A stretch of DNA of 26,486 nt from a virus, in IMG/VR virus record IMGVR_UViG_3300049846_000427, positions 1-26,486 of that record; one strand, given 5' to 3'. This document shows positions 554 through 26,187 of this stretch, piece by piece. The notes beneath the pieces are model-generated. The model did no database searches, was not told the DNA's origin, and was given only the letters and a program-made list of their open reading frames with translations. Within the stretch, counting starts at the first letter, position 1. The number at the start of each line of letters is the position of its first letter. The position numbers and the translations under genes are program-made.

Positions 554-922
554 GTGGATCGCAAGACAATAATTCACATTGCTAAAGTTTTACGCAGGGG
601 TACTTTGACCTGGCATGGCCGGAATGAAGCCCTGGCAAAGGTTTCCAAGAAAAAGTGGGAAGGTAAGAAAACCAAAAAAGGTAAAAAGATTCTGAAGACT
701 TACTGGCAATGTTTGAAGTGTCTTGAGTGGTTCAGAGATTCTTCTTCACTTGAAGTTGACCACATTATTGAAGTTGGGAAAATGCCAGAGAGAGTCGAAG
801 AAATTCTTGATTATGCTAAGAGACTTTACGATGCCCCAAACCTTCAGTGCCTCTGTAGTGTATGCCATCAGAAGAAAACGAGTGGCTACAATGCCACTCG
901 TAAGTATAAGAGAAAATCTTAG
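554..922 (+). CDS. HNH endonuclease (small phage type)
   Basis: This 122-residue protein has a zinc-knuckle HNH core. A CxxC pair (CLKCLEW, about residues 53-59) is followed by EVDHI, which holds the first catalytic His, then NLQCLC and a second CxxC in CSVCHQKKT. The family nicks or cuts DNA. Small phage HNH proteins act as homing endonucleases or assist packaging. The N-terminus is very basic (many Lys/Arg), as expected for DNA binding. The start is GTG 554, directly after an in-frame TAA, and I see no strong Shine-Dalgarno site. It is the only convincing plus-strand gene here. It diverges from the polymerase gene, and its stop codon overlaps the stop of the last lysis gene by four bases. 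A polymerase neighbour and opposite orientation suggest a mobile insertion, but that is inference. Confidence 0.85.
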   Translation: MDRKTIIHIAKVLRRGTLTWHGRNEALAKVSKKKWEGKKTKKGKKILKTYWQCLKCLEWFRDSSSLEVDHIIEVGKMPERVEEILDYAKRLYDAPNLQCLCSVCHQKKTSGYNATRKYKRKS

Positions 923-1746
923 AGTACTTTACAGAGTTCCCTATTTGAATTGACCATGATGTCTATGGACTCAAGCATATCTTCACAGGCTGGAAGAATT
1001 CCTGCCTCTCTCTTTCTTAAAGGTCCGTAGTGTCCAGTAGATCCACCATTTACTCTGACCATGACTGCTGCGTATTCCGTAGCGAACATGGGACATTCCT
1101 TAGAGAGTTTCTGAAAAGTCACTCCCTCACCCTCGCCCCAATTTTTCCAAGAATTCTCAGTGCAGCTAACTCTGTCCTTGAATAGGTCAAGATAGCATTT
1201 GCTTCCGTCTGCTTTATATTTCTCGTACATCTTTGGAAGAATGGAATGCTTTACTCTTGAGTTGTAGCTTGTCTGAAATAATCCTGCTTCGCAAGTTTCA
1301 TGGGTATAGTTAGTAGCGGCCATGTCCCTTCCTTCACAGAATTTTCCAGATGATTCTCTCATTCCTAGACCAATGAGTAGTTGGTAGGTTTTACGGATTG
1401 ACTGAATTCCAGGAGATGCTTCAATCGCATAGTGAGAGAGGGCATCAGAGGTCACGGCTCCCTTCTGCGGAGCCTTTGAGACAACCGTTAGGATGTCCTC
1501 TCTCTCCATATTGCATACTGCCCTTGCGTAGGCTACTGCCATTCCCTTCATGTAGGCCTTTGGAGCCCTTCCCCTCTCATGCCAGGAGTAGGAAGTGCAA
1601 GCATGGGAATCTACAAACTTCAGAAGATCCCCAATCTCCTTTGGAATTGGAAGACTAGGCTTCGGCGTGGGAGTAGGCTTTGGACCTTCTCCGACTGGAA
1701 GCTGAGTACACCCAGAAATAAAAATAAATAAAAGTGGAAGAATCAT
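919..1746 (-). CDS. Lipoprotein with lysozyme/transglycosylase-like domain, putative second lytic enzyme
   Basis: This 275-residue protein begins with a very short lipoprotein signal: MILPLLFIFISGC, lipobox Cys13. It has no basic residue before the hydrophobic stretch. A Pro/Lys/Thr-rich linker (about 20-36) follows. The C-terminal half has a pattern like soluble lytic transglycosylases: MRESSG with candidate catalytic Glu131, AGLFQTSYN (154-162) and a late GSTGHYGPL. About ten Cys residues suggest disulfides and a periplasmic location. The residue after Cys13 is Thr, which under the Lol rule predicts sorting to the outer membrane. The start is fixed by an AAAGGAG site and an ATGA overlap with the amidase gene upstream. 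Cleavage of peptidoglycan glycan strands at lysis is likely but inferred; a regulatory or spanin-like role is the alternative. Confidence 0.6.
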   Translation of the reverse strand: MILPLLFIFISGCTQLPVGEGPKPTPTPKPSLPIPKEIGDLLKFVDSHACTSYSWHERGRAPKAYMKGMAVAYARAVCNMEREDILTVVSKAPQKGAVTSDALSHYAIEASPGIQSIRKTYQLLIGLGMRESSGKFCEGRDMAATNYTHETCEAGLFQTSYNSRVKHSILPKMYEKYKADGSKCYLDLFKDRVSCTENSWKNWGEGEGVTFQKLSKECPMFATEYAAVMVRVNGGSTGHYGPLRKREAGILPACEDMLESIDIMVNSNRELCKVL

Positions 1747-3017
1747 ACAAGTCTCCTTTCAATAAATTCTCTATAGTCGTCCATGGGCATTGATAGTGCT
1801 CCTCCTGGATCATTCTTTCTCCAGTACCCAAGGCCAAGTTTTCCACTTACCTCATGGTGTCCAAGGATATTATCAATCTTCATAGTCCCATAGGGGTCAT
1901 TTTGAAGTAGCCAAATTATAGTACGAGTCAGAGATGCCTCCTGAATTTTTGAGTAAGGCAGATACCACCCCTCAGGACAGTCATAGTCATCTTCTGTAAC
2001 GTAGATGGGATTCCCATGAATATCTGGATTTATTTTCTTATTAAACCAAGTATAAAATCCATCAGATCTCTTCTCGAGTCTTCCAGGATTTGCCATTTCA
2101 ATTCCAATTAGGTCATCAGATACTGATCCAATTAAGGGATAGGTTCCCCTAGCCCAGGAGGATTCTCCGGCATGATACCCCCAGAGATTTACTGGATGGG
2201 CTTGAAGAACCTCCCCAGTGGAGGCAATTCCTAGGAATGCAAAACCTTGGTTAACTCCCCAGTTCATAGTGTCTTCCATGTCGGAGTACTTCTCCCATTG
2301 ACCAGCGGTGAAGTGAATGAGAATTCCTTTAGGGTATCCTCCTTCGTAGCCTCCTCTGGTCTTCATCTTATTTTTCATCTGAATTGCAAATGGGATTATT
2401 GTTTCCCCAGTTCCCTTGAATGCTCCTCCATCAATTGGAATTGAAGGGTCTAATTTATTCCATGTCTGAGGTCCTACAACTCCATCGGGCAGAAGGCCAT
2501 TAGCAGATTGAAAGGCCTTTACCATTCTCTCGGTGTAAGTATCAAAGTCTCCGTAAGATTCATCAGAGGAGCTGTACCCCTTTTCAAAAAGTAATCTGTG
2601 GAGTATAGAGACATCTTGCCCCTTATCTCCAAGTTTAAGTCTAGACCTAATTGTTTTTTCCACTGACCCTCCCTTGGCTTTAGTGGCTTTATCTACTATG
2701 GGATCGATTCTCTTTGAGGAGTCTTCAATTTTATCCACTATATCTTTGGTACAGACTCCAGTATCACCACATAGTTTTAACAGGGCAGCTTTAAGATTGG
2801 CATAGTTAGAGGAGTCAGTGCAAAGCATTCCAACTCTCTCCTTGTCCCATTCAGGTTTTGTTAGAGATCTACGTCTTGAAGTGAATATCCTGTCACACTC
2901 AGCTCCAACTTTACCCATGTCCCCACACCACTCAGAGTCTTTAATGGGGACTGTAGTGCAGCTAGAGAGGGCCAGTGTAAGAACTAGGATGCTTGATAAG
3001 TTTATCGAGTTTCTCAT
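1743..3017 (-). CDS. Endolysin: lipoprotein N-acetylmuramoyl-L-alanine amidase with peptidoglycan-binding domain
   Basis: This 424-residue protein has three parts. Residues 1-20 are a lipoprotein signal ending in LALSSC (lipobox Cys20). Residues 126-190 match a PG_binding_1 domain (LKLGDKGQDV, then VKAFQ and DGVVGPQTW). Residues 228-410 are an Amidase_2 domain, which cuts the bond between MurNAc and L-Ala of the stem peptide. Expected zinc ligands are His235 (ILIHFTAG), His387 (GHHEVS) and Asp403 (NDPGG); Glu307 in GIEMANPG is a conserved active-site region. ATG 3017 has an AAGGGA site. Thr after Cys20 suggests outer-membrane sorting. Most endolysins wait in the cytoplasm for a holin; this one should be exported by Sec and tethered by lipid, so its control must differ. 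Function is well supported; topology is inferred. Confidence 0.9.
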   Translation of the reverse strand: MRNSINLSSILVLTLALSSCTTVPIKDSEWCGDMGKVGAECDRIFTSRRRSLTKPEWDKERVGMLCTDSSNYANLKAALLKLCGDTGVCTKDIVDKIEDSSKRIDPIVDKATKAKGGSVEKTIRSRLKLGDKGQDVSILHRLLFEKGYSSSDESYGDFDTYTERMVKAFQSANGLLPDGVVGPQTWNKLDPSIPIDGGAFKGTGETIIPFAIQMKNKMKTRGGYEGGYPKGILIHFTAGQWEKYSDMEDTMNWGVNQGFAFLGIASTGEVLQAHPVNLWGYHAGESSWARGTYPLIGSVSDDLIGIEMANPGRLEKRSDGFYTWFNKKINPDIHGNPIYVTEDDYDCPEGWYLPYSKIQEASLTRTIIWLLQNDPYGTMKIDNILGHHEVSGKLGLGYWRKNDPGGALSMPMDDYREFIERRLV

Positions 3018-3324
3018 GGAATCTGTCCCTTATTTGTTGAATCTCTTTAGGGTCATATTCTTCAATAGGTTTATCTGATTCTTCAATAGCTTTTATTTCT
3101 AGGACTATTTCTTTATATTCTTCATCCTGGATAGCTACTTCGTAGTCTATTATTTTGAAATCAATGACAGTTCCAAGGACTGCAAAGGCTGGCTTTAACC
3201 AGAGATCAAATGCAAATTGTGCAAAGGGCCTCACCCAAGGAAGGTTAAGTACTGGGATTTTTATAAAGAGAATGCCTACAAACACTCTGTAGGCATACTC
3301 ACTCATCAATCTTTTAAAGAGCAC
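2962..3324 (-). CDS. Small membrane protein of the lysis cassette, unknown function
   Basis: This 120-residue protein starts at GTG 3324 with an AAGG site about nine bases upstream; ATG 3306 is a possible alternative start. Residues 10-55 are hydrophobic and aromatic (FVGILFIKIPVLNLPW, then FAFDLWLKPAFAVLG) and probably form one or two membrane segments. The rest is a charged, acidic helical tail with many Glu/Asp and Lys residues. It sits six bases after the holin-like gene, and its last 56 bases overlap the amidase gene, so translation of the two is probably coupled. I do not recognise the family. Its place between a holin candidate and an endolysin suggests a lysis role, such as antiholin or inner-membrane spanin. 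No direct evidence supports either role. Confidence 0.7.
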   Translation of the reverse strand: MLFKRLMSEYAYRVFVGILFIKIPVLNLPWVRPFAQFAFDLWLKPAFAVLGTVIDFKIIDYEVAIQDEEYKEIVLEIKAIEESDKPIEEYDPKEIQQIRDRFHEKLDKLIKHPSSYTGPL

Positions 3325-3329
3325 TTAGA

Positions 3330-3740
3330 TTAGCCTTTGTAGAGGTCACCCATGATTTTCTTTGCCAGGTACTTTCCGATCAGATCCCAAGTTCCTGAGG
3401 CGAAGATACCTGCGATAATTCCGTTGAGGAGTGCTGGCCCTACGCTTGCTCCTGGGGTCATGAGGGCCATACCTGCCATTCCGATTGAACTTAGGACCAT
3501 GGTTACGATTGGCAGAGTTTCGTGAGTGAGATTTAACTTTGGGAGGACATACTGCCTAATCCCCACAATCAAGATCATGATACCAATTCCGTAAGCCACG
3601 TTATGATTTCCTGTAGCGATTGCTTCCAGAAGTTTTGGAAGGTAGCCAACTACTTGATCCACTGTCTCTGGAGGAGCTACCTCCTGTGCCCAAGAAATAA
3701 TTGGGGTAATCAATAGGGTAAATAGGGTAATAACTTTCAT
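3330..3740 (-). CDS. Holin candidate with N-terminal signal peptide
   Basis: This 136-residue protein begins with a typical Sec signal (MKVITLFTLLITPIISWAQ, likely cut after Ala18). It then has hydrophobic segments at about 48-64 (YGIGIMILIVGI), 76-96 (IVTMVLSSIGMAGMAL) and 101-118 (GPALLNGIIAGIFASG). A short basic C-terminus follows. Small size, several membrane segments and a place just upstream of the endolysin are the usual reasons to propose a holin, which would permeabilise the inner membrane at a set time. A cleavable signal is uncommon in holins, so another small exported membrane protein is possible. The start has a very strong AAGGAGG site, implying high translation. No family was recognised. 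Confidence 0.65.
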   Translation of the reverse strand: MKVITLFTLLITPIISWAQEVAPPETVDQVVGYLPKLLEAIATGNHNVAYGIGIMILIVGIRQYVLPKLNLTHETLPIVTMVLSSIGMAGMALMTPGASVGPALLNGIIAGIFASGTWDLIGKYLAKKIMGDLYKG

Positions 3741-3779: not shown

Positions 3780-3808
3780 GAAAATGGCAAGGGATTATTG
3801 GCCTTGCC
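3780..3808 (-). terminator. Possible weak intrinsic terminator
   Basis: On the minus strand a 7-bp stem (GGCAAGG with CCTTGCC) and a 9-nt loop are followed by ATTTTCC. The loop holds the stop codon of the 92-residue gene. The stem is moderate and the T-tract short, so partial termination or an RNA processing site is as likely as full termination. Confidence 0.4.
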
Positions 3809-4073
3809 GATCTATTTTACCTTCAAGTCTTCCAAGACCTTGAACCATAGAAAGGAGGATAGAGTGCATTGCCTCGATTTTTTCCCAGATTGCCCTCTCC
3901 TTTATGTCGTGATTATTGCGAATATCGGAAAGGTCTTTCTCCTGCTTTTTCTCGAGTTCAAATACTTTTGTAGTTAATGAATTTATACGGGAATCCATTC
4001 TCACCAACTGGGCAAATCCGCCCAGGATAAGAGCTATGGCAGCAATGGTGTGGTAGTTAAGTTCTATTCCCAT
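3795..4073 (-). CDS. Small N-terminally anchored coiled-coil membrane protein
   Basis: This 92-residue protein has one hydrophobic segment near the N-terminus (TIAAIALILGGFAQLV, about residues 9-24). A long charged heptad-like region (about 28-90) follows, consistent with a coiled coil. That topology resembles inner-membrane spanins and single-span lysis accessory proteins. XhlA-type haemolysins have the opposite order, with the membrane segment at the C-terminus. It is the first gene of the lysis-type cassette, after the tail fibre chaperone. The start at ATG 4073 has no clear Shine-Dalgarno site, and a perfect 12-bp hairpin lies 11 bases upstream, so translation may be structured or reduced. 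The exact role is unknown. Confidence 0.7.
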   Translation of the reverse strand: MGIELNYHTIAAIALILGGFAQLVRMDSRINSLTTKVFELEKKQEKDLSDIRNNHDIKERAIWEKIEAMHSILLSMVQGLGRLEGKIDRQGQ

Positions 4074-4141: not shown

Positions 4142-4690
4142 TTACTCTTTACCCTGAGCCTGGAGGAAGGCCGTGATTTCATCGGTAAGAGCTGTTTTCT
4201 CTTGGACTGTGTAATAGGTCTCATCCATTGAAGTAATTAAAACTCTAGCGTCCATGAGCCATCCGTTTTTAAGGGACTCCATAGTCATTGCGTAAACTTG
4301 AATCCCAGCTAAGGTAGCAAACGAGATCTGTTTAGACTCTGTAAGGCTAGCTACTTTGTCAAACAGCCTCATTCCGACCTGTCTGGACATTTGTCTGTAT
4401 GAAAGTTCCATCTCAGTATTTATGTCCTGGGATACATCCAAATACTGAATAGTGAACTCAGCCGGAAATTGGTATGTGGTGACTCCAGCGACATCTGTCT
4501 GACTGGATAGGGCTTGATTGATTGCTTTACCCTCCCTAACAGTTTCTTGTTCAGTTAGCCATCTGAGTACTTTCCCAAATGCTCCGGTTTGTGAGACCTG
4601 ACTTACCCAGGATTCAGCAAGTTCTTGGGTAGCAAAGGTACCAGCGTGGGTTACGTCATTTTGAAGATTTTTAATTACTGCCTTGATCAT
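4142..4690 (-). CDS. Probable tail fibre assembly chaperone or fibre accessory protein
   Basis: This 182-residue protein is soluble and mostly helical by composition, without signal or membrane segments. Its start forms a TAATG overlap with the stop of the fibre gene upstream, with an AAAGGA site about ten bases before it. The N-terminus (MIKAVIKNLQNDVTHAGTF, then ELAESWVSQV and AFGKVLRWL) resembles, from memory, short proteins that follow tail fibre genes in siphoviruses. Phage fibres often need a dedicated chaperone encoded directly downstream, so this role is inferred from position and resemblance. No catalytic motif is visible. Confidence 0.5.
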   Translation of the reverse strand: MIKAVIKNLQNDVTHAGTFATQELAESWVSQVSQTGAFGKVLRWLTEQETVREGKAINQALSSQTDVAGVTTYQFPAEFTIQYLDVSQDINTEMELSYRQMSRQVGMRLFDKVASLTESKQISFATLAGIQVYAMTMESLKNGWLMDARVLITSMDETYYTVQEKTALTDEITAFLQAQGKE

Positions 4691-6666
4691 TAGTTACCGA
4701 TCCTTTCAATAGTCATTGTGTTGTAAATTGGGGAAGCAGTGATGCCAGTCGTAGCTACCGAGGCAGCGGCTCTGACATCCAGTGTTCCACCAGCAAGTAA
4801 ATCCACTGTTGAGGTGACTGTGATGTAATAGTTATTACTCGCCCCATTTCCAAGGATTGCATTAGACTCTATCGTCGAAGAGTTCTTCCTGATGTTGGCA
4901 ACAAGAACTTGAGAAGTGGATAAGGATACCCCTGCCGTTACTACCTTAGCGACAATCCTGTACTTCCCTGCAATTGGAGCAGTGAATACTCCAGTCGAAG
5001 TATTGTAGGCGTTATGGGTATCATATACTTTCGTATTGTAAATGAAAGTAGCATCTGAGGTTCCAATTACCTGACCACTTACATCAGTGTACCTAGCTGC
5101 AACAGTTTCAGATGCGGCTATCTGAGCTGGCCCTGAAATTCTAGAAACACTCAAAACGGTATTTTCATTTGTTCCACCAGTCGAAGTGACAGTTACGTTC
5201 TGGCTATTAGCTAAAACCCAAAGGCTTACGTAATCTCCTGCATTCAAATAAACTTCAGTATTCGAAATTAGGGAATAGAACTTGGAAGCTACAGTATCAG
5301 TAGTGTAGTGGATTCCTAAGTTTGCACCAGTGCCATTTTTCTTCCAGTAAGATGAAACATCACTTGGAGCAGTTCCACCAGTCTCAATCAATGTCTGAGC
5401 CTTCAGTAAATAGTACCCACTTACTGGAGCAGTGAATCTTCCAGTAGAGGTGGAGTAGGCCCCATGAGTGTCTTGAACTGAGGTATTTCCAATTACTTCT
5501 AGAGCTACTCCGGCAGTAGCCGTCTGGGAAGTAGATGTCCTAATGGCCTTGGCAGAGATGACTCTAGTCTCTGCATCATTAGAGAGTTGGAGATTGGAAC
5601 TCCATCCAACAATTGGGACTTTGAAATTAACATTGATATAGTTCCCAGATGCCCAGGTTGACGGGGCAGTACTTGATACCGCTGATATCGTACCAGTAGT
5701 TGAACTCGGATAGAGTAGATAAACAGAAGTAGTATTGTTGTAGGCTACATAGAATCCTTTTACAGTAGACCCATCATACCCAGATCCCATACCCAAATGT
5801 GGTACTGCTGATCCTACGGCAGTAGTCAACTTAGTGGTGTCAATTGCAAGTCCAGATGGGATACCTACTTGGAGAGTAGTGGCAGTTGGAGCCCCACTCA
5901 AAGCAACGTGGACCGTCCCTTCAAGGCTATCTCCAACTCTTCGATACATTCCAGTGTAAGTGGTATTAGTTACCCAAGTGCCTGTAGGAGTGTAAGATTT
6001 CCAATCTCCTACATAAGCCCCATTAGCCGATACTTGCTTTGAAATGGAAAAATTATCCATCTTCAAAGAGTAAGCAGAGGTCGAAGTCGAAGAGACGTGA
6101 AGACAAAGGCGGTAAGAAGTAGAGCTACTTGTTTGGAATACTCCCTTATACTTGTAATTGTACCCACTCAAAGCTGGCTCAAGTAATCTTGGCGCTGGCT
6201 CAATTACTACAGCATTTGTCACGTCATACAAGTAGACAGTGACATCTGATGGAGTAGCTGGAGCTGTGGAACCAGCAAAGGTTCCGGAGTTTAAAAGCCA
6301 GTCAAACTCTACCTGAAGTACATTATGCTTATCCCCAGACTCCGTAGTAAAGCTGTAAGCTGCCCCATTACCTTGCCTGTTTGCAGAATCCTTGGTCAGG
6401 ATAAAGCTTTGAAGTCCACTCATTGGGGAAGTTGAACTTCTAGCGAAGGTTAAAGAGGGAGATCCCCCAGTACAATCAACAGGTACTACCCCAGCCGCGT
6501 CAGCGTAGGTAGTCCACTTTGGAGCTGGAAGTTCAGCGTCTCCATTTACAATAAAATTCTTTGGGACTTTTACTCCCCTCAAAGTATCTACATCAATGAT
6601 CTTTGACTGACCAAAGGCCATAGCCCCAGTCAGCAAGAGACCAATCAAAGTTACTAACTTAGTCAT
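4690..6666 (-). CDS. Tail fibre-like protein with signal peptide and two C1q-like domains
   Basis: This 658-residue protein opens with a Sec-type signal: basic Lys3, hydrophobic LVTLIGLLLTGAMA, likely cut near Gly19. Residues 36-220 hold a carbohydrate-binding-like beta sandwich beginning FIVNGDAELPAPKW. A central beta-rich region (about 225-350) follows. Two related C1q/TNF-like jelly rolls are at about 359-515 and 520-658. Each contains a YDTHNAYNTSTGVFTAP-type strand and a GKYRIVAK/GYYLLKAQ strand. C1q-like heads form trimers and bind receptors in several phage fibres. The start has a strong GGGAGG site and a TAATG overlap with the fibre gene upstream, so the signal peptide is not a start-site artefact. 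A signal peptide is odd for a virion protein assembled in the cytoplasm. Ser/Thr/Gly richness is typical of fibres. Confidence 0.75.
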   Translation of the reverse strand: MTKLVTLIGLLLTGAMAFGQSKIIDVDTLRGVKVPKNFIVNGDAELPAPKWTTYADAAGVVPVDCTGGSPSLTFARSSTSPMSGLQSFILTKDSANRQGNGAAYSFTTESGDKHNVLQVEFDWLLNSGTFAGSTAPATPSDVTVYLYDVTNAVVIEPAPRLLEPALSGYNYKYKGVFQTSSSTSYRLCLHVSSTSTSAYSLKMDNFSISKQVSANGAYVGDWKSYTPTGTWVTNTTYTGMYRRVGDSLEGTVHVALSGAPTATTLQVGIPSGLAIDTTKLTTAVGSAVPHLGMGSGYDGSTVKGFYVAYNNTTSVYLLYPSSTTGTISAVSSTAPSTWASGNYINVNFKVPIVGWSSNLQLSNDAETRVISAKAIRTSTSQTATAGVALEVIGNTSVQDTHGAYSTSTGRFTAPVSGYYLLKAQTLIETGGTAPSDVSSYWKKNGTGANLGIHYTTDTVASKFYSLISNTEVYLNAGDYVSLWVLANSQNVTVTSTGGTNENTVLSVSRISGPAQIAASETVAARYTDVSGQVIGTSDATFIYNTKVYDTHNAYNTSTGVFTAPIAGKYRIVAKVVTAGVSLSTSQVLVANIRKNSSTIESNAILGNGASNNYYITVTSTVDLLAGGTLDVRAAASVATTGITASPIYNTMTIERIGN

Positions 6667-18499: not shown

Positions 18500-19350
18500 T
18501 TAACTCCTCCACCCTGGATGACTATCCTTATGCTGGGGTAAACATAGGGCCCCTTAGATACCGATCCACTGTGATTTCTCTTTGTCCCTGTGAATCTGGC
18601 CCTAAGTTTTTTCCCCTGGTAGTCCCTAGTTGGAAACCCCCCACTTGGAGTTAAATTGGAACCATTGATAAATTCAAAGAAAATTTTAGAATTGAACTTA
18701 AATTTTCTCTTAATGGCCCTACTTGCTAGGAAGTAGGCTCCATTGGCCATTCTCACCATAGCATCGCCAGTACGTTTAAGTGGCCTCTCCTGCCTGTCTC
18801 TAGACTGACCGAGTTTCCTGTATTTCCTGGAAGTAGTTCCCTTCCCGGCAGAGATGCCCTCTAGCTCAAGGAAAGTAGCATAAGGGGTTATATTGACTAT
18901 TCTAATTATATCCCCGTCAGTTATCTTAGATTCATTTATCTTTAACCATCCAGCAAGCTGGGCTTCATTTCTGGCTACCTCTACACCATTGTAAGATAAG
19001 ATATGATTGTCCCTGTAGAATCCAGTTCTTACTGGAGAGGTCCTAATCACCTGAGAGTACAACTCTCTAAGTAATCCCCCAGCTTCAACCCGAGCTGTAA
19101 AAGAAATTTGTCCTAAGGGACTTACATTGATGATAGGTTTGCCGACTTTCCCATCAACGGCTACGATGGGAGTTTTATCAAATCCTTTAGCCTGTTCTTC
19201 TTTTAGGGCCGCATCTGAAATTATGATGAGATTTCTTTTAGTGAACTCCAGTAATTCAGAAAGGGTAACTTCTCCGGAGAAATCAGAATCTACTTTCCAC
19301 TTGGGAGATTTTTTTCCTCTCTCCTCAATATAAAAATCTACCGCGAGCAT
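18496..19350 (-). CDS. Neck/tail completion protein, HK97 gp10-like
   Basis: This 284-residue protein contains the family hallmark: TSPVRTGFYRDNHILSYNG (about 115-133) and, later, VNITPYATFLELEG. Basic C-terminal regions (SRKYRKLGQSRDRQERPLKR and KKLRARFTGTKRNHSG) follow. HK97 gp10 and related minor tail proteins (also compared with lambda gpZ) act between head and tail. Usual lengths are 110-190, so this one is long, with an extra N-terminal 90 residues or so. The start has no clear Shine-Dalgarno site and depends on a TAATG overlap with the head-closure gene. The order connector, closure, gp10-like, terminator is canonical. Confidence 0.75.
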   Translation of the reverse strand: MLAVDFYIEERGKKSPKWKVDSDFSGEVTLSELLEFTKRNLIIISDAALKEEQAKGFDKTPIVAVDGKVGKPIINVSPLGQISFTARVEAGGLLRELYSQVIRTSPVRTGFYRDNHILSYNGVEVARNEAQLAGWLKINESKITDGDIIRIVNITPYATFLELEGISAGKGTTSRKYRKLGQSRDRQERPLKRTGDAMVRMANGAYFLASRAIKRKFKFNSKIFFEFINGSNLTPSGGFPTRDYQGKKLRARFTGTKRNHSGSVSKGPYVYPSIRIVIQGGGVK

Positions 19351-21983: not shown

Positions 21984-23377
21984 TAAGCGTTCTTCTTAAT
22001 GAATTCTACTTCTACGTGAAGGTCAGTAGCATTCTTAGCAACGCCTACTTTCCAAACGTGGGCTCCGCCACCTGAAGGAAGTGTAGCTGTGAGTGCAGAC
22101 CCAGACCAATAGATTGTCTGACCAGCGGTAGCTCCACTCAAAACCCCAGTCAAAACAGTGTCATTAGCAAGAACCTTAACCGTAGCCGCAGCGGTCTCAG
22201 TGGTAGCTGCAAGTCCAATTACTCGGGCAGTATTTGTAAGAGCGCCGTACTCTGCAACAGTGTCATTGGCAGAAACATATACAGGAAAACCTTTAGTTAC
22301 TCCACCGACTGCTACTGTGTAGTTAACGCCTACTTGGCCAACAAGCCCGTAAAGTTCCTGGAGGGCTCCTTCAACTTGAGTTTGAGCTGTGTAGTTACCA
22401 GCATCAGCAATAGGAACGTCAGCCGCAGATACTTGGTTAGCTCCAGTACCCCAGTCAATGTGGGTGTCGTTAATTCCATCGGCTTTTACTCGAAGAGTGT
22501 CAGAGTTGATTTCAATAGTAGAGCTATCGACATTTACACTGAGGACTCCAGAAGAAAATCCGAGACCAGCTCCAGCGGAAGAGGCATCAAGCCGGATGTC
22601 AAAACCAACTTTTACAAGACCAGTTGAAGCCGTTGTGGACTCTTCATATTTAGCTGCCCAGCTTGATCCACCCCAGAGGTAAAAAGCTACAGACGCCTCA
22701 TTGTCTACAGCTACTCGCGTACCAGTAGTTGGAGTCGTGGCTACCCATACAGTTCCGTTGAACCGAACGATATCTCCAGCCGCAGCTCCATCGTAGGCCG
22801 CATTTGGAGTTCCACCGTCATGGCTCAAAACATATACAGTTCCAGTAGTCTCAACTACAGGTGCAATAGTGTTGTCAGCAACGTAATCAAGTGCCGAGTA
22901 TGGGTACCACTCGCTAGTTATAAGTACGTCATCAACATACTTTTTATCTACAAGCTGAGTGTCTGCTGTGAAAGTAGGGTGAGAGTTGTAAGACTGGATG
23001 CCAGTCAAAGCCCTAGTTCCATCAGTTCTTAGATATTGAGTGTGATCGTCATCCCCGAGACCCCCGATAGACCCGTGGTCAATATCAGAATCATCAATCA
23101 AAGAAGCATCGATCTTTCCGCCAGCATCAGTCTTGACTGGCTTACCGGCGTCTCCAGCTCCAGCAGAAGTGGCAATAAATTCATTCTCTCGGTAGTATCT
23201 AGCATCATGGATATGTTCATCAGCAGAGTCAGCCCCATCGATAAGGTTAGATAGCTTTGCATCTGTTAGTTCTTTATTCGCAGTTTTAAAAGACAGGAAC
23301 TTTACAGAGTCCCCAGACTCTGAGTGCTCCTGATCATACCCATTCGCATTTTTATAGATCACTTTAATATCGGCCAT
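21983..23377 (-). CDS. Fibre-like virion protein with GDDDHTQY motif
   Basis: This 464-residue protein has recognisable fibre motifs: HIHDARYY (55-62), KPVKTDAGGKIDASLI (79-94) and SIGGLGDDDHTQYLRTDG (103-120). HxH and DDHxQY elements occur in tail fibre shafts and can bind metal along a trimer axis. The middle (about 155-340) is beta-rich with GDIVRFNGTVWV. The C-terminal 110 residues form a Gly/Thr/Ala-rich beta domain like those at the ends of two proteins just upstream. ATG 23377 has an AAGGAGG site. Its place between portal and connector suggests a head fibre or decoration role, but a tail fibre encoded out of order is possible. Confidence 0.7.
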   Translation of the reverse strand: MADIKVIYKNANGYDQEHSESGDSVKFLSFKTANKELTDAKLSNLIDGADSADEHIHDARYYRENEFIATSAGAGDAGKPVKTDAGGKIDASLIDDSDIDHGSIGGLGDDDHTQYLRTDGTRALTGIQSYNSHPTFTADTQLVDKKYVDDVLITSEWYPYSALDYVADNTIAPVVETTGTVYVLSHDGGTPNAAYDGAAAGDIVRFNGTVWVATTPTTGTRVAVDNEASVAFYLWGGSSWAAKYEESTTASTGLVKVGFDIRLDASSAGAGLGFSSGVLSVNVDSSTIEINSDTLRVKADGINDTHIDWGTGANQVSAADVPIADAGNYTAQTQVEGALQELYGLVGQVGVNYTVAVGGVTKGFPVYVSANDTVAEYGALTNTARVIGLAATTETAAATVKVLANDTVLTGVLSGATAGQTIYWSGSALTATLPSGGGAHVWKVGVAKNATDLHVEVEFIKKNA

Positions 23378-23399
23378 GTCTCACTCCCTCCTTGGTAGT

Positions 23400-23792
23400 T
23401 TATTTTTCTATTTCAATCTTTCCAGTACTTGGGTCGTATCCAAACTTATCTCCAGGCAAGTTATAAATTTTAAAAATATCTTGTTTTAAGGCATGATATT
23501 TTTCTTTAGAACTTTCATATTCCTTGGCTTTCGATTGAAGGACAATCTTTTGCTTTTCAATCCTAGACTTTAGTATCTCCATGGTCAGCGTCATGTTTTG
23601 AAGTGCCTGTTCTTCTAAGGCCATTCGCAATTTAAAATTTTCCATGTCTCTCTGTAGACACTCGATATGAAGTAAATGGTCTGGATTTAAAAATAATCCT
23701 TCGTCCCCGAAGAAACTGGGCTCCTGTTGAACTACGGCCTCTTCTTTAACTTCTGGAATAATTGCAGGTTTCTTACTTTTTGATTTAGCCAT
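23400..23792 (-). CDS. Coiled-coil protein, unknown function
   Basis: ATG 23792 lies one base before the previous stop codon and has a GGGGG site, giving 130 residues; an ATG further upstream would overlap that gene. The N-terminus is Lys-rich (AKSKSKKP). Residues 45-105 form a long heptad-like coiled coil (IECLQRDMENFKLRMALEEQ and onward). The tail ends GDKFGYDPSTGKIEIE, a pattern seen at the C-terminus of several small phage proteins of unknown role. Between fibre-like genes in the head region it could be a scaffold or internal structural protein, but nothing proves this. Confidence 0.65.
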   Translation of the reverse strand: MAKSKSKKPAIIPEVKEEAVVQQEPSFFGDEGLFLNPDHLLHIECLQRDMENFKLRMALEEQALQNMTLTMEILKSRIEKQKIVLQSKAKEYESSKEKYHALKQDIFKIYNLPGDKFGYDPSTGKIEIEK

Positions 23793-24318: not shown

Positions 24319-26187
24319 CTAGGCCCTCACAATTCTATCACCGCGCTGGTAAAAGAACCTAGTCGGAGAAAAAGGAAGTCCAAGCCTTACTAACACTGTC
24401 CCAGTGGCTGTAGGTGCCTGAGGTAGTGCCACAATTTGCCCAGGATAAACATCAGATAAATAGTATTCCTCATAGATATCCAAACCTATGAATAGTGCTC
24501 CAGTAATACCTGCTACCCTAATATTACATAAATTTAAACTTGGCTTTGACTCAACAATTCCAAAGACATTCGAATTTGTATAATTGTCAGCAAGTGCATT
24601 TACTGCAACAGTAGCATAAGTGCTAGCGTCCATCGTGGGGAGAGTAGACAGAAGGGTCCACTGATCCATTGTTAGGGCTACAAGGCCAGTGGCATTCATC
24701 CTAACCGCAGCTCCAACGTATACAGAAGAGTCGCAAGCCACATTAGTTACTATCTCGTTAGCTGCGCCTCCAGAAATCGTTCCCTGATAAACCCAAGTTC
24801 CAGCAATCTTCTTATATTGATCCCCGTTGCTAGTGTCTTGATAGATATCTCCATCAACTCCAAGGCCTCCAAAAGGAGTCCCAGATCCAAAGTAATACTG
24901 ACTTCCGTCAGCTCCATCGGTCCCATTGGTTCCGTTGGTCCCGTTAGTTCCATTATTCCCTGCTGGGCCTGTAAGATTGTCTTGAAGAACCCAAGAGCCA
25001 GAAATCTTTTTATACTGATCCCCGTTAGAAGTATCCTGATAGATATCTCCATCAGTTCCAGAAGCATTAGACGGAACTCCAGATCCAAACAGATAGTCAA
25101 AGTCAGAAGATCCGCCTCCACCGCCAGATCCACCGCCACCTGAAGTTACGTAAACTACTCCGGTAGCTCCAGATGGAAGAGTTACAGACCTAGTGCGTAT
25201 CTGAGCCCCATCAGAAAATACGAAAACGAATTCAATGGTATCTTTGAACTGGTCTATTCTTACATCTACAACTACTGGGGCATCTTTTCCGTCTTGTCCA
25301 TTAAATCCCTGAGGCCCAGAAAACCCTCTAGGGCCAGATAGTCCAGGAAGACCGCGCATTCCAGTTTTCCCGGTATCCCCTTTATCTCCCTTTTCACCCT
25401 GGGGGCCAATTGGACCTTGCTTACCTCTTTGCCCTCTAGATCCCTTTAACTCTAATTTTTGATCGGGGGTTAGATACTCAAACTTTAATCGGAGAGATTC
25501 TCTTTCCCCCTCCGTGAGGTCAGAGAATCTCAGTTTCAAACTCTCCTTCTCCTCATCCGTAAGGTCGGAGAATTTAAGTTTTAAACTTTGAAAGAATTCA
25601 AGATGCTCCTCAAATACAAAATCTTTACCAGGCTTACCCCTCTGACCCCTTTTACCCTTAGGTCCCCTTAACTGAGATATCTCCTCTGGGACTAAATCAG
25701 AAAAGTTTAGTTTCAGATCATCTTTTATAAAGTTTATATGCGAGGCAATTAAAATTGCTATTTCATCTTTATTTTCTTCAAAATTAAAACTAAGTCCGTC
25801 AGTCCCTGGGGGACCTCTGAGACTCTCAATCTCCTCCTTAGTTAGGTCAGAAAGTTTTAGAGATGATTCTTTTATCCAAGATCTTAATACTTCTTCTACT
25901 TCATCTAATTGGAAGTCCTTACCGTCTCTTCCATCTCTGCCACTTGGTCCTCTGAGTAATTCAATTTTCTCTGGAGTCAATTCTGAGGCAATATCTACAG
26001 CCTCAGTAATCCATTTCTGAATTACTGTACCGTGCTCATCAATGCTAAATGATTTGCCTGGGTCTCCAGACTCCCCTTGAGGTCCTCTTGGTCCTTGCCT
26101 CGAGGCAATGGATCTTCCTAGAAGACTTTCCTCAATCTTCTCTTCGACAATCTTAGTGACTATCGCTAAGAGTACGGAACTCTTCAC
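24319..26187 (-). CDS. Collagen-like fibre protein
   Basis: This 622-residue protein begins at GTG 26187 (AAGGG site). Collagen-type Gly-X-Y runs lie at 32-45, 80-90, 125-132, 174-189 and 249-301, the last with about 17 triplets (GPIGPQGEKGDKGDTGKTG). Between them are six copies of a helical motif like SDLTKEEIESLR. A Gly/Ser hinge (349-361) is followed by two near-identical modules with GTDGDIYQDTSNGDQYKK (365-405 and 431-471), linked by an NGT repeat. The C-terminal 145 residues form a beta domain. Phage collagen-like proteins fold as trimers in fibres. The gene lies directly after the portal gene, so a head or vertex fibre is the natural guess. Confidence 0.8.
   Translation of the reverse strand: MKSSVLLAIVTKIVEEKIEESLLGRSIASRQGPRGPQGESGDPGKSFSIDEHGTVIQKWITEAVDIASELTPEKIELLRGPSGRDGRDGKDFQLDEVEEVLRSWIKESSLKLSDLTKEEIESLRGPPGTDGLSFNFEENKDEIAILIASHINFIKDDLKLNFSDLVPEEISQLRGPKGKRGQRGKPGKDFVFEEHLEFFQSLKLKFSDLTDEEKESLKLRFSDLTEGERESLRLKFEYLTPDQKLELKGSRGQRGKQGPIGPQGEKGDKGDTGKTGMRGLPGLSGPRGFSGPQGFNGQDGKDAPVVVDVRIDQFKDTIEFVFVFSDGAQIRTRSVTLPSGATGVVYVTSGGGGSGGGGGSSDFDYLFGSGVPSNASGTDGDIYQDTSNGDQYKKISGSWVLQDNLTGPAGNNGTNGTNGTNGTDGADGSQYYFGSGTPFGGLGVDGDIYQDTSNGDQYKKIAGTWVYQGTISGGAANEIVTNVACDSSVYVGAAVRMNATGLVALTMDQWTLLSTLPTMDASTYATVAVNALADNYTNSNVFGIVESKPSLNLCNIRVAGITGALFIGLDIYEEYYLSDVYPGQIVALPQAPTATGTVLVRLGLPFSPTRFFYQRGDRIVRA
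24775..25095 (-). repeat. Internal duplication in the collagen-like fibre gene
   Basis: Two modules of about 41 codons, 25095-24973 and 24897-24775, share the stretch DGDIYQDTSNGDQYKKI exactly and much of the surrounding DNA. They are separated by a short NGT triplet repeat (around 24917-24956). This looks like a recent tandem duplication with a collagen-like linker. Confidence 0.75.
25444..25569 (-). repeat. Tandem 45-bp repeats encoding LKFSDLTxEExES units
   Basis: Three consecutive units with a period of about 15 residues: SDLTDEEKESLK, SDLTEGERESLR and EYLTPDQKLELK, each followed or preceded by LK(L)(R/K)F. DNA of the first two is clearly similar. Three more copies occur singly upstream in the gene, at residues 68-79, 113-124 and 163-174, each next to collagen triplets. 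Confidence 0.8.

Follow-up and report, generated by a model that had tools for sequence, protein, structure and literature searches.

What is an amidase doing behind a lipoprotein signal in a phage lysis cassette? In the window, the 26,486-nucleotide stretch of IMG/VR virus record IMGVR_UViG_3300049846_000427 that was analysed, one open reading frame places a lipobox in front of the two domains of an endolysin (Table 1). The original prediction took its product for an endolysin carrying a lipoprotein signal, exported before lysis and in need of another control of timing, such as inhibition by a partner or membrane potential. The comparisons presented here favor a different answer, to which we assign a probability of about two in three: that in 1743-3017 an o-spanin gene has been joined in frame to the endolysin gene that once followed it in the cassette, with pairing to an i-spanin and a dual product included in this reading.

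Table 1 Features of the lysis region in the window.
Feature	Positions	Strand	Basis and remarks
Lysozyme-like protein (phrog_33367)	919..1746	(-)	hydrophobic N-terminus and ISGC; possible second lipoprotein
Putative fusion gene: o-spanin-like lipoprotein domain, PG-binding domain, amidase	1743..3017	(-)	424 aa, ATG start
Amidase_2 domain, residues 228-405	1803..2336	(-)	Pfam E 5e-8, above cut-off; presumed zinc ligands H235, H387, D403
PG_binding_1 domain, residues 133-189	2451..2621	(-)	Pfam E 3e-14, above cut-off
Possible internal start, AAGGGAGGG-TCA-GTG, codon 119	2661..2675	(-)	anti-SD pairing -11.8 kcal/mol
O-spanin-like domain with linker, residues 20-108	2694..2960	(-)	33-47% identity to stand-alone lipoproteins in L006, L007, L008
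Predicted lipoprotein signal, residues 1-19, Cys20 next	2961..3017	(-)	lipobox rule; Cys20 kept in 4/4 family members
I-spanin-like gene	2962..3324	(-)	start codon uncertain; one marginal hydrophobic segment, then charged, probably helical tail
Holin-like protein	3330..3740	(-)	phrog_1299 holin E 2e-4; signal-peptide-like N-terminus, two hydrophobic segments
XhlA-like small coiled protein, cassette head	3795..4073	(-)	Pfam XhlA E 7e-5, below curated cut-off

Domains of the 424-residue protein

The N-terminus of the protein, MRNSINLSSILVLTLALSSC, contains Arg2, a hydrophobic stretch and the lipobox LSSC ending in Cys20, with Thr at +2, and it is the sole match to a PROSITE-like lipoprotein rule among the 60 open reading frames of at least 60 residues in the window. 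The lipobox of the original prediction was thus borne out, as were the Amidase_2 domain with its zinc ligands and the PG-binding domain: both domains score above the Pfam cut-off, and the three presumed ligands are kept, together with K401, in MW202458, the nearest named amidase. Phage endolysins of the Amidase_2/PG_binding_1 type (phrog_880, phrog_1493) have the same two domains and the same presumed ligands. The difference lies in front of them, where the window protein has a lipoprotein domain; in the MW202458 relative a glucosaminidase domain takes that place, and a lipobox is absent. The only other ATG near the front of the reading frame is codon 34, and a start there would truncate the conserved N-terminal domain. 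An AlphaFold model of the whole protein had a mean pLDDT of 39 and was unusable.

Overlooked in the original prediction was that residues 20 to ~104 form a separate conserved domain. The full-length protein retrieved no relatives from the viral contigs or genome contigs searched, and a profile of the amidase domain had no match in the viral contigs. A search with residues 20-110 alone brought out a relative in the IMG/VR contig L006, and a two-row profile then found two further relatives, in L007 and L008. Further profiles of the domain returned the same three viral contigs only, with no second fusion, and no match in the genome contigs. In L006, L007 and L008 the domain is the entire gene (122, 122 and 143 aa), with its own signal and its own stop codon, and pairwise comparison with the window protein gives E values of 2e-22, 1e-23 and 6e-20. 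These lipoproteins contain the motif I-x-D-S-E-W-C and a Cys aligned to Cys20, which is invariant in all four family members. On the amidase side the nearest relative, in MW202458, has no lipobox, so the check for relatives without the Cys gives a split answer. At another place in its genome, the L007 virus encodes a separate PG-binding endolysin of its own, and in L008 XhlA/holin-like genes lie directly upstream of the lipoprotein gene pair. The fused form is known from one example, on a single metagenomic contig, which weighs against the fusion.

The junction and a possible internal start

Where would the lipoprotein end and the endolysin begin? From Cys20 up to codon 119 there are 99 residues, compared with 88-110 in the mature stand-alone relatives, and this fit in length argues for a whole o-spanin joined to a whole endolysin. 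Codon 119 is a GTG preceded by AAGGGAGGGTCA, and its pairing with the 16S tail is the strongest among the 222 internal in-frame start codons of the main genes of the window and on a par with that of the top-ranking gene starts (-11.3 to -12.0 kcal/mol). Its predicted product is a 306-residue endolysin that lacks the signal, and GTG119 is the sole start that would give a free endolysin. The Shine-Dalgarno spacing of 4 nt is slightly short, and a value of -10.3 kcal/mol occurs at another internal codon, 410, presumably as a chance pairing; for these reasons the use of dual starts, giving both the full-length protein and the GTG119 product, is judged from the sequence to have roughly even odds. 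A strong-looking Shine-Dalgarno sequence also precedes codon 64, but a start there was discounted, since the conserved o-domain would be cut.

The resemblance of this strong Shine-Dalgarno sequence and start to the beginning of a gene also fits another explanation, in which the two genes are normally separate, with the endolysin starting at GTG119, and appear joined through a sequencing or assembly error or through recent loss of a stop codon in one genome. Only one metagenomic record shows the fusion, each of the three stand-alone relatives ends in its own stop codon, and at the junction there are several Lys, Glu and Arg codons that a single substitution would turn into a stop. However, the frame is open and the composition even across the junction, a frameshift error would need a chance match of two frames, and the lysis genes on both flanks fit one cassette, which makes a chimeric join unlikely. 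We consider error or stop-codon loss unlikely.

The overlapping partner gene and the lysis cassette

If the N-terminal domain is an o-spanin, which protein would be its i-spanin? The lipoprotein gene starts inside the gene of a small membrane-type protein and in its +1 frame in the window as well as in L006, L007 and L008, with an overlap of 56 bp in the window and of 11, 101 and 125 bp in the three relatives. This is the arrangement of overlapped two-component spanins (PMC6139136), and on this basis the N-terminal part is best read as an o-spanin and the product of 2962-3324 as its i-spanin. As in overlapped spanins of the phage P2 type, the lipoprotein gene starts within the gene of a small membrane protein, is read in a different frame and adjoins holin-like genes; moreover, the o-part has several periplasmic Cys and the i-part none, which is reported to be common in two-component spanins (PMC6139136). 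The difference is that the window o-part is not terminated and continues into the PG-binding domain and amidase. Two further observations count against the fusion. The partner genes are poorly conserved, with 17-24% identity between the window product and those of the three relatives, and their membrane segments are marginal (one hydrophobic segment in the window and L006, none above threshold in L007 and L008). In addition, the o-domain and its stand-alone relatives have no match to a named spanin family. A hairpin at 3263-3306 (-), in the 5' part of the i-spanin-like gene, has a folding energy of -19.8 kcal/mol (z -3.4) and is followed by a weak T-rich stretch.

The gene pair also bears on the model of the original prediction, in which an endolysin acquired a lipoprotein signal, the first ~110 residues are a spacer, and timing is set by an inhibitor or by membrane potential. 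Lipobox and enzyme do lie within one reading frame, and this pair of domains also occurs in cellular lipoprotein amidases of the outer membrane, such as E. coli AmiD. However, the supposed spacer is a conserved domain that makes up an entire gene in each of three other viruses and comes with an overlapping partner gene, and the presence of a whole o-spanin-like domain with relatives in spanin gene pairs argues for a fusion of two genes over an endolysin that gained a signal. We regard the acquired-signal model as unlikely. What holds of the original prediction is a lipobox-bearing amidase in a lysis cassette, probably exported; the idea that the signal was simply added to an endolysin probably does not.

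The putative fusion of an o-spanin with an endolysin gene can be compared with the cassettes of Bdellovibrio phages. The cassettes of phi1402 and MAC3UK run from a small membrane protein through a holin-like protein, an i-spanin-like gene and an overlapping lipoprotein to a PG-binding protein (a match below the Pfam cut-off) and a lysozyme-like protein, and the window has the same order except that the lipoprotein and the PG-binding endolysin occupy one reading frame. In phi1422 the overlapping pair and the lysozyme-like protein are present with other genes in between. The same overlap and +1 frame occur in these three phages with a lipoprotein family that has no detectable homology to the window o-domain family, and the window holin-like and XhlA-like genes do not align with phi1402; since homology is detectable only for the lysozyme-like protein, the likeness is one of order and anatomy.

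The annotated starts of two of these Bdellovibrio phage genes, phi1402 (L003) gp37 (18684-19076) and phi1422 (L005) gp72 (23071-23436), are too late. The longer frames encode predicted lipoproteins (lipoboxes IISC and LSGC, respectively) and overlap the preceding gene in the +1 frame, making both unrecognised o-spanin candidates.

That the window N-terminal domain is some other cassette lipoprotein, e.g. a wall-binding anchor or an amidase inhibitor, would suit the missing family match and the weakness of the partner genes as i-spanin candidates but is very unlikely, given that in all four family genomes and in the three Bdellovibrio phages the lipoprotein gene overlaps that of a small membrane protein and lies in its +1 frame, and that spanins are so diverse in sequence that an absent family match carries little weight (PMC6139136).

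The lysozyme-like protein at the end of the cassette retrieved no relatives as a single query. A profile of its family reached six loci, two of them in known phages, and among named phages the window product is related only to proteins of phi1422, phi1402 and MAC3UK (33-46% identity). In the window and the Bdellovibrio phages the protein stands alone with a hydrophobic-looking N-terminus. In contigs L015 (5275-6822) and L017 (5266-6840) the phrog_33367 domain instead forms the C-terminal side of larger PG_binding_1 proteins, which have a sub-threshold CHAP match and neither a signal nor a hydrophobic N-terminal segment. This placement inside larger PG-binding, probably CHAP-bearing endolysins suggests that the phrog_33367 family is muralytic. 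The family has an invariant Arg-Glu-Ser (E131). A model of the protein gave nothing significant with Foldseek, and with VIA-align it gave middling Z scores of up to 5.8, with Slt, MltE and phiKZ gp144 among the rows; lytic transglycosylases are among these structural matches, and the fold of the protein is a lead. Past the lysozyme-like gene, an HNH endonuclease gene (554-922) lies on the opposite (+) strand and converges on the end of the cassette.

A proposed lysis mechanism, known systems and the host

How might such a fusion act in lysis? We propose, tentatively and with the odds somewhat against it, that a single outer-membrane-anchored o-spanin/endolysin chain works alongside free endolysin from the internal start, so that wall cutting and outer-membrane removal would be physically coupled. 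We infer that the full-length product is lipidated and probably sorted to the outer membrane; the sorting rule based on the +2 residue is that of E. coli and may not be this host's. Across the periplasm, the N-terminal domain would form a pair with the i-spanin-like product of 2962-3324, and the C-terminal PG-binding/amidase part would be held at the wall. Holin triggering and cutting of the wall would then free the complex, which would fuse the inner and outer membranes. The GTG119 start may also give a cytosolic endolysin; because its release would depend on the holin, lysis would stay under the usual timing control.

Export of an active amidase could bring premature lysis, and this is counted against the fusion. 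However, the E. coli wall hydrolases MltE and AmiD are anchored in the outer membrane and tolerated by cells, which suggests that an anchored amidase need not kill early. This tolerance and the possible cytosolic product weaken the earlier argument that lysis timing requires a special inhibitor.

A natural fusion would put both lysis steps in one molecule, as opposed to the model of a wall-caged spanin freed by a separate endolysin. It would make directly testable whether the two steps must be separate, whether an outer-membrane amidase is silent until the holin acts, and what sets the lysis clock. An endolysin-fused form would join the known spanin gene architectures, which are embedded (the class of lambda Rz/Rz1), overlapped, separated and unimolecular. 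In the accepted view, the wall restrains spanins until it has been cut (PMC6139136); if the fusion is real, the restrained molecule would also carry the cutter.

Several known systems share part of this design. A canonical holin-dependent cytosolic endolysin has no export signal; the full-length window product has a lipoprotein signal, and the GTG119 product would not. In E. coli AmiD, a cellular outer-membrane lipoprotein, an Amidase_2 and a PG-binding domain are combined as in the window protein, but in reversed order and without an o-spanin-like domain or an overlapping partner gene. SAR endolysins (phi21 R) and the signal-peptide lysin of fOg44, which is cited in PMC9430671, are also wall enzymes exported by the host before lysis; they rely on a membrane anchor or a cleaved signal peptide, whereas the window protein has a clear lipobox with Cys20, a predicted lipid anchor and an extra domain, which sets it outside the SAR class. 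Single genes that yield two endolysin polypeptides through internal starts are described for phages of Gram-positive hosts (PMC9430671) and for LysA of mycobacteriophage Ms6 (PMC3111421). Like the window gene, they have a strong in-frame start inside the endolysin gene; in the window, the predicted short product is the whole endolysin and the long product is the endolysin plus an o-spanin. No description of a natural lipidated or spanin-fused endolysin was found in the open-access literature searched.

Such a fusion also draws attention to how phages of Bdellovibrionota lyse their hosts, a subject almost absent from the literature searched. Two genes of the window point to this group: the lysozyme-like gene and a minus-strand gene at 3-497, cut off at the window end, whose sole match among named phages is in a Silvanigrella aquatica phage (35-37% identity) with which the window has no other clear gene match. 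The matches of the tail genes lie in phages that infect many other hosts, and with this mixture in view a Bdellovibrio-like host, or one within Bdellovibrionota, is likely from gene content. The virion-type products of two further minus-strand genes, 4690-6666 and 24319-26187, feature a C1q-like domain and collagen-like repeats.
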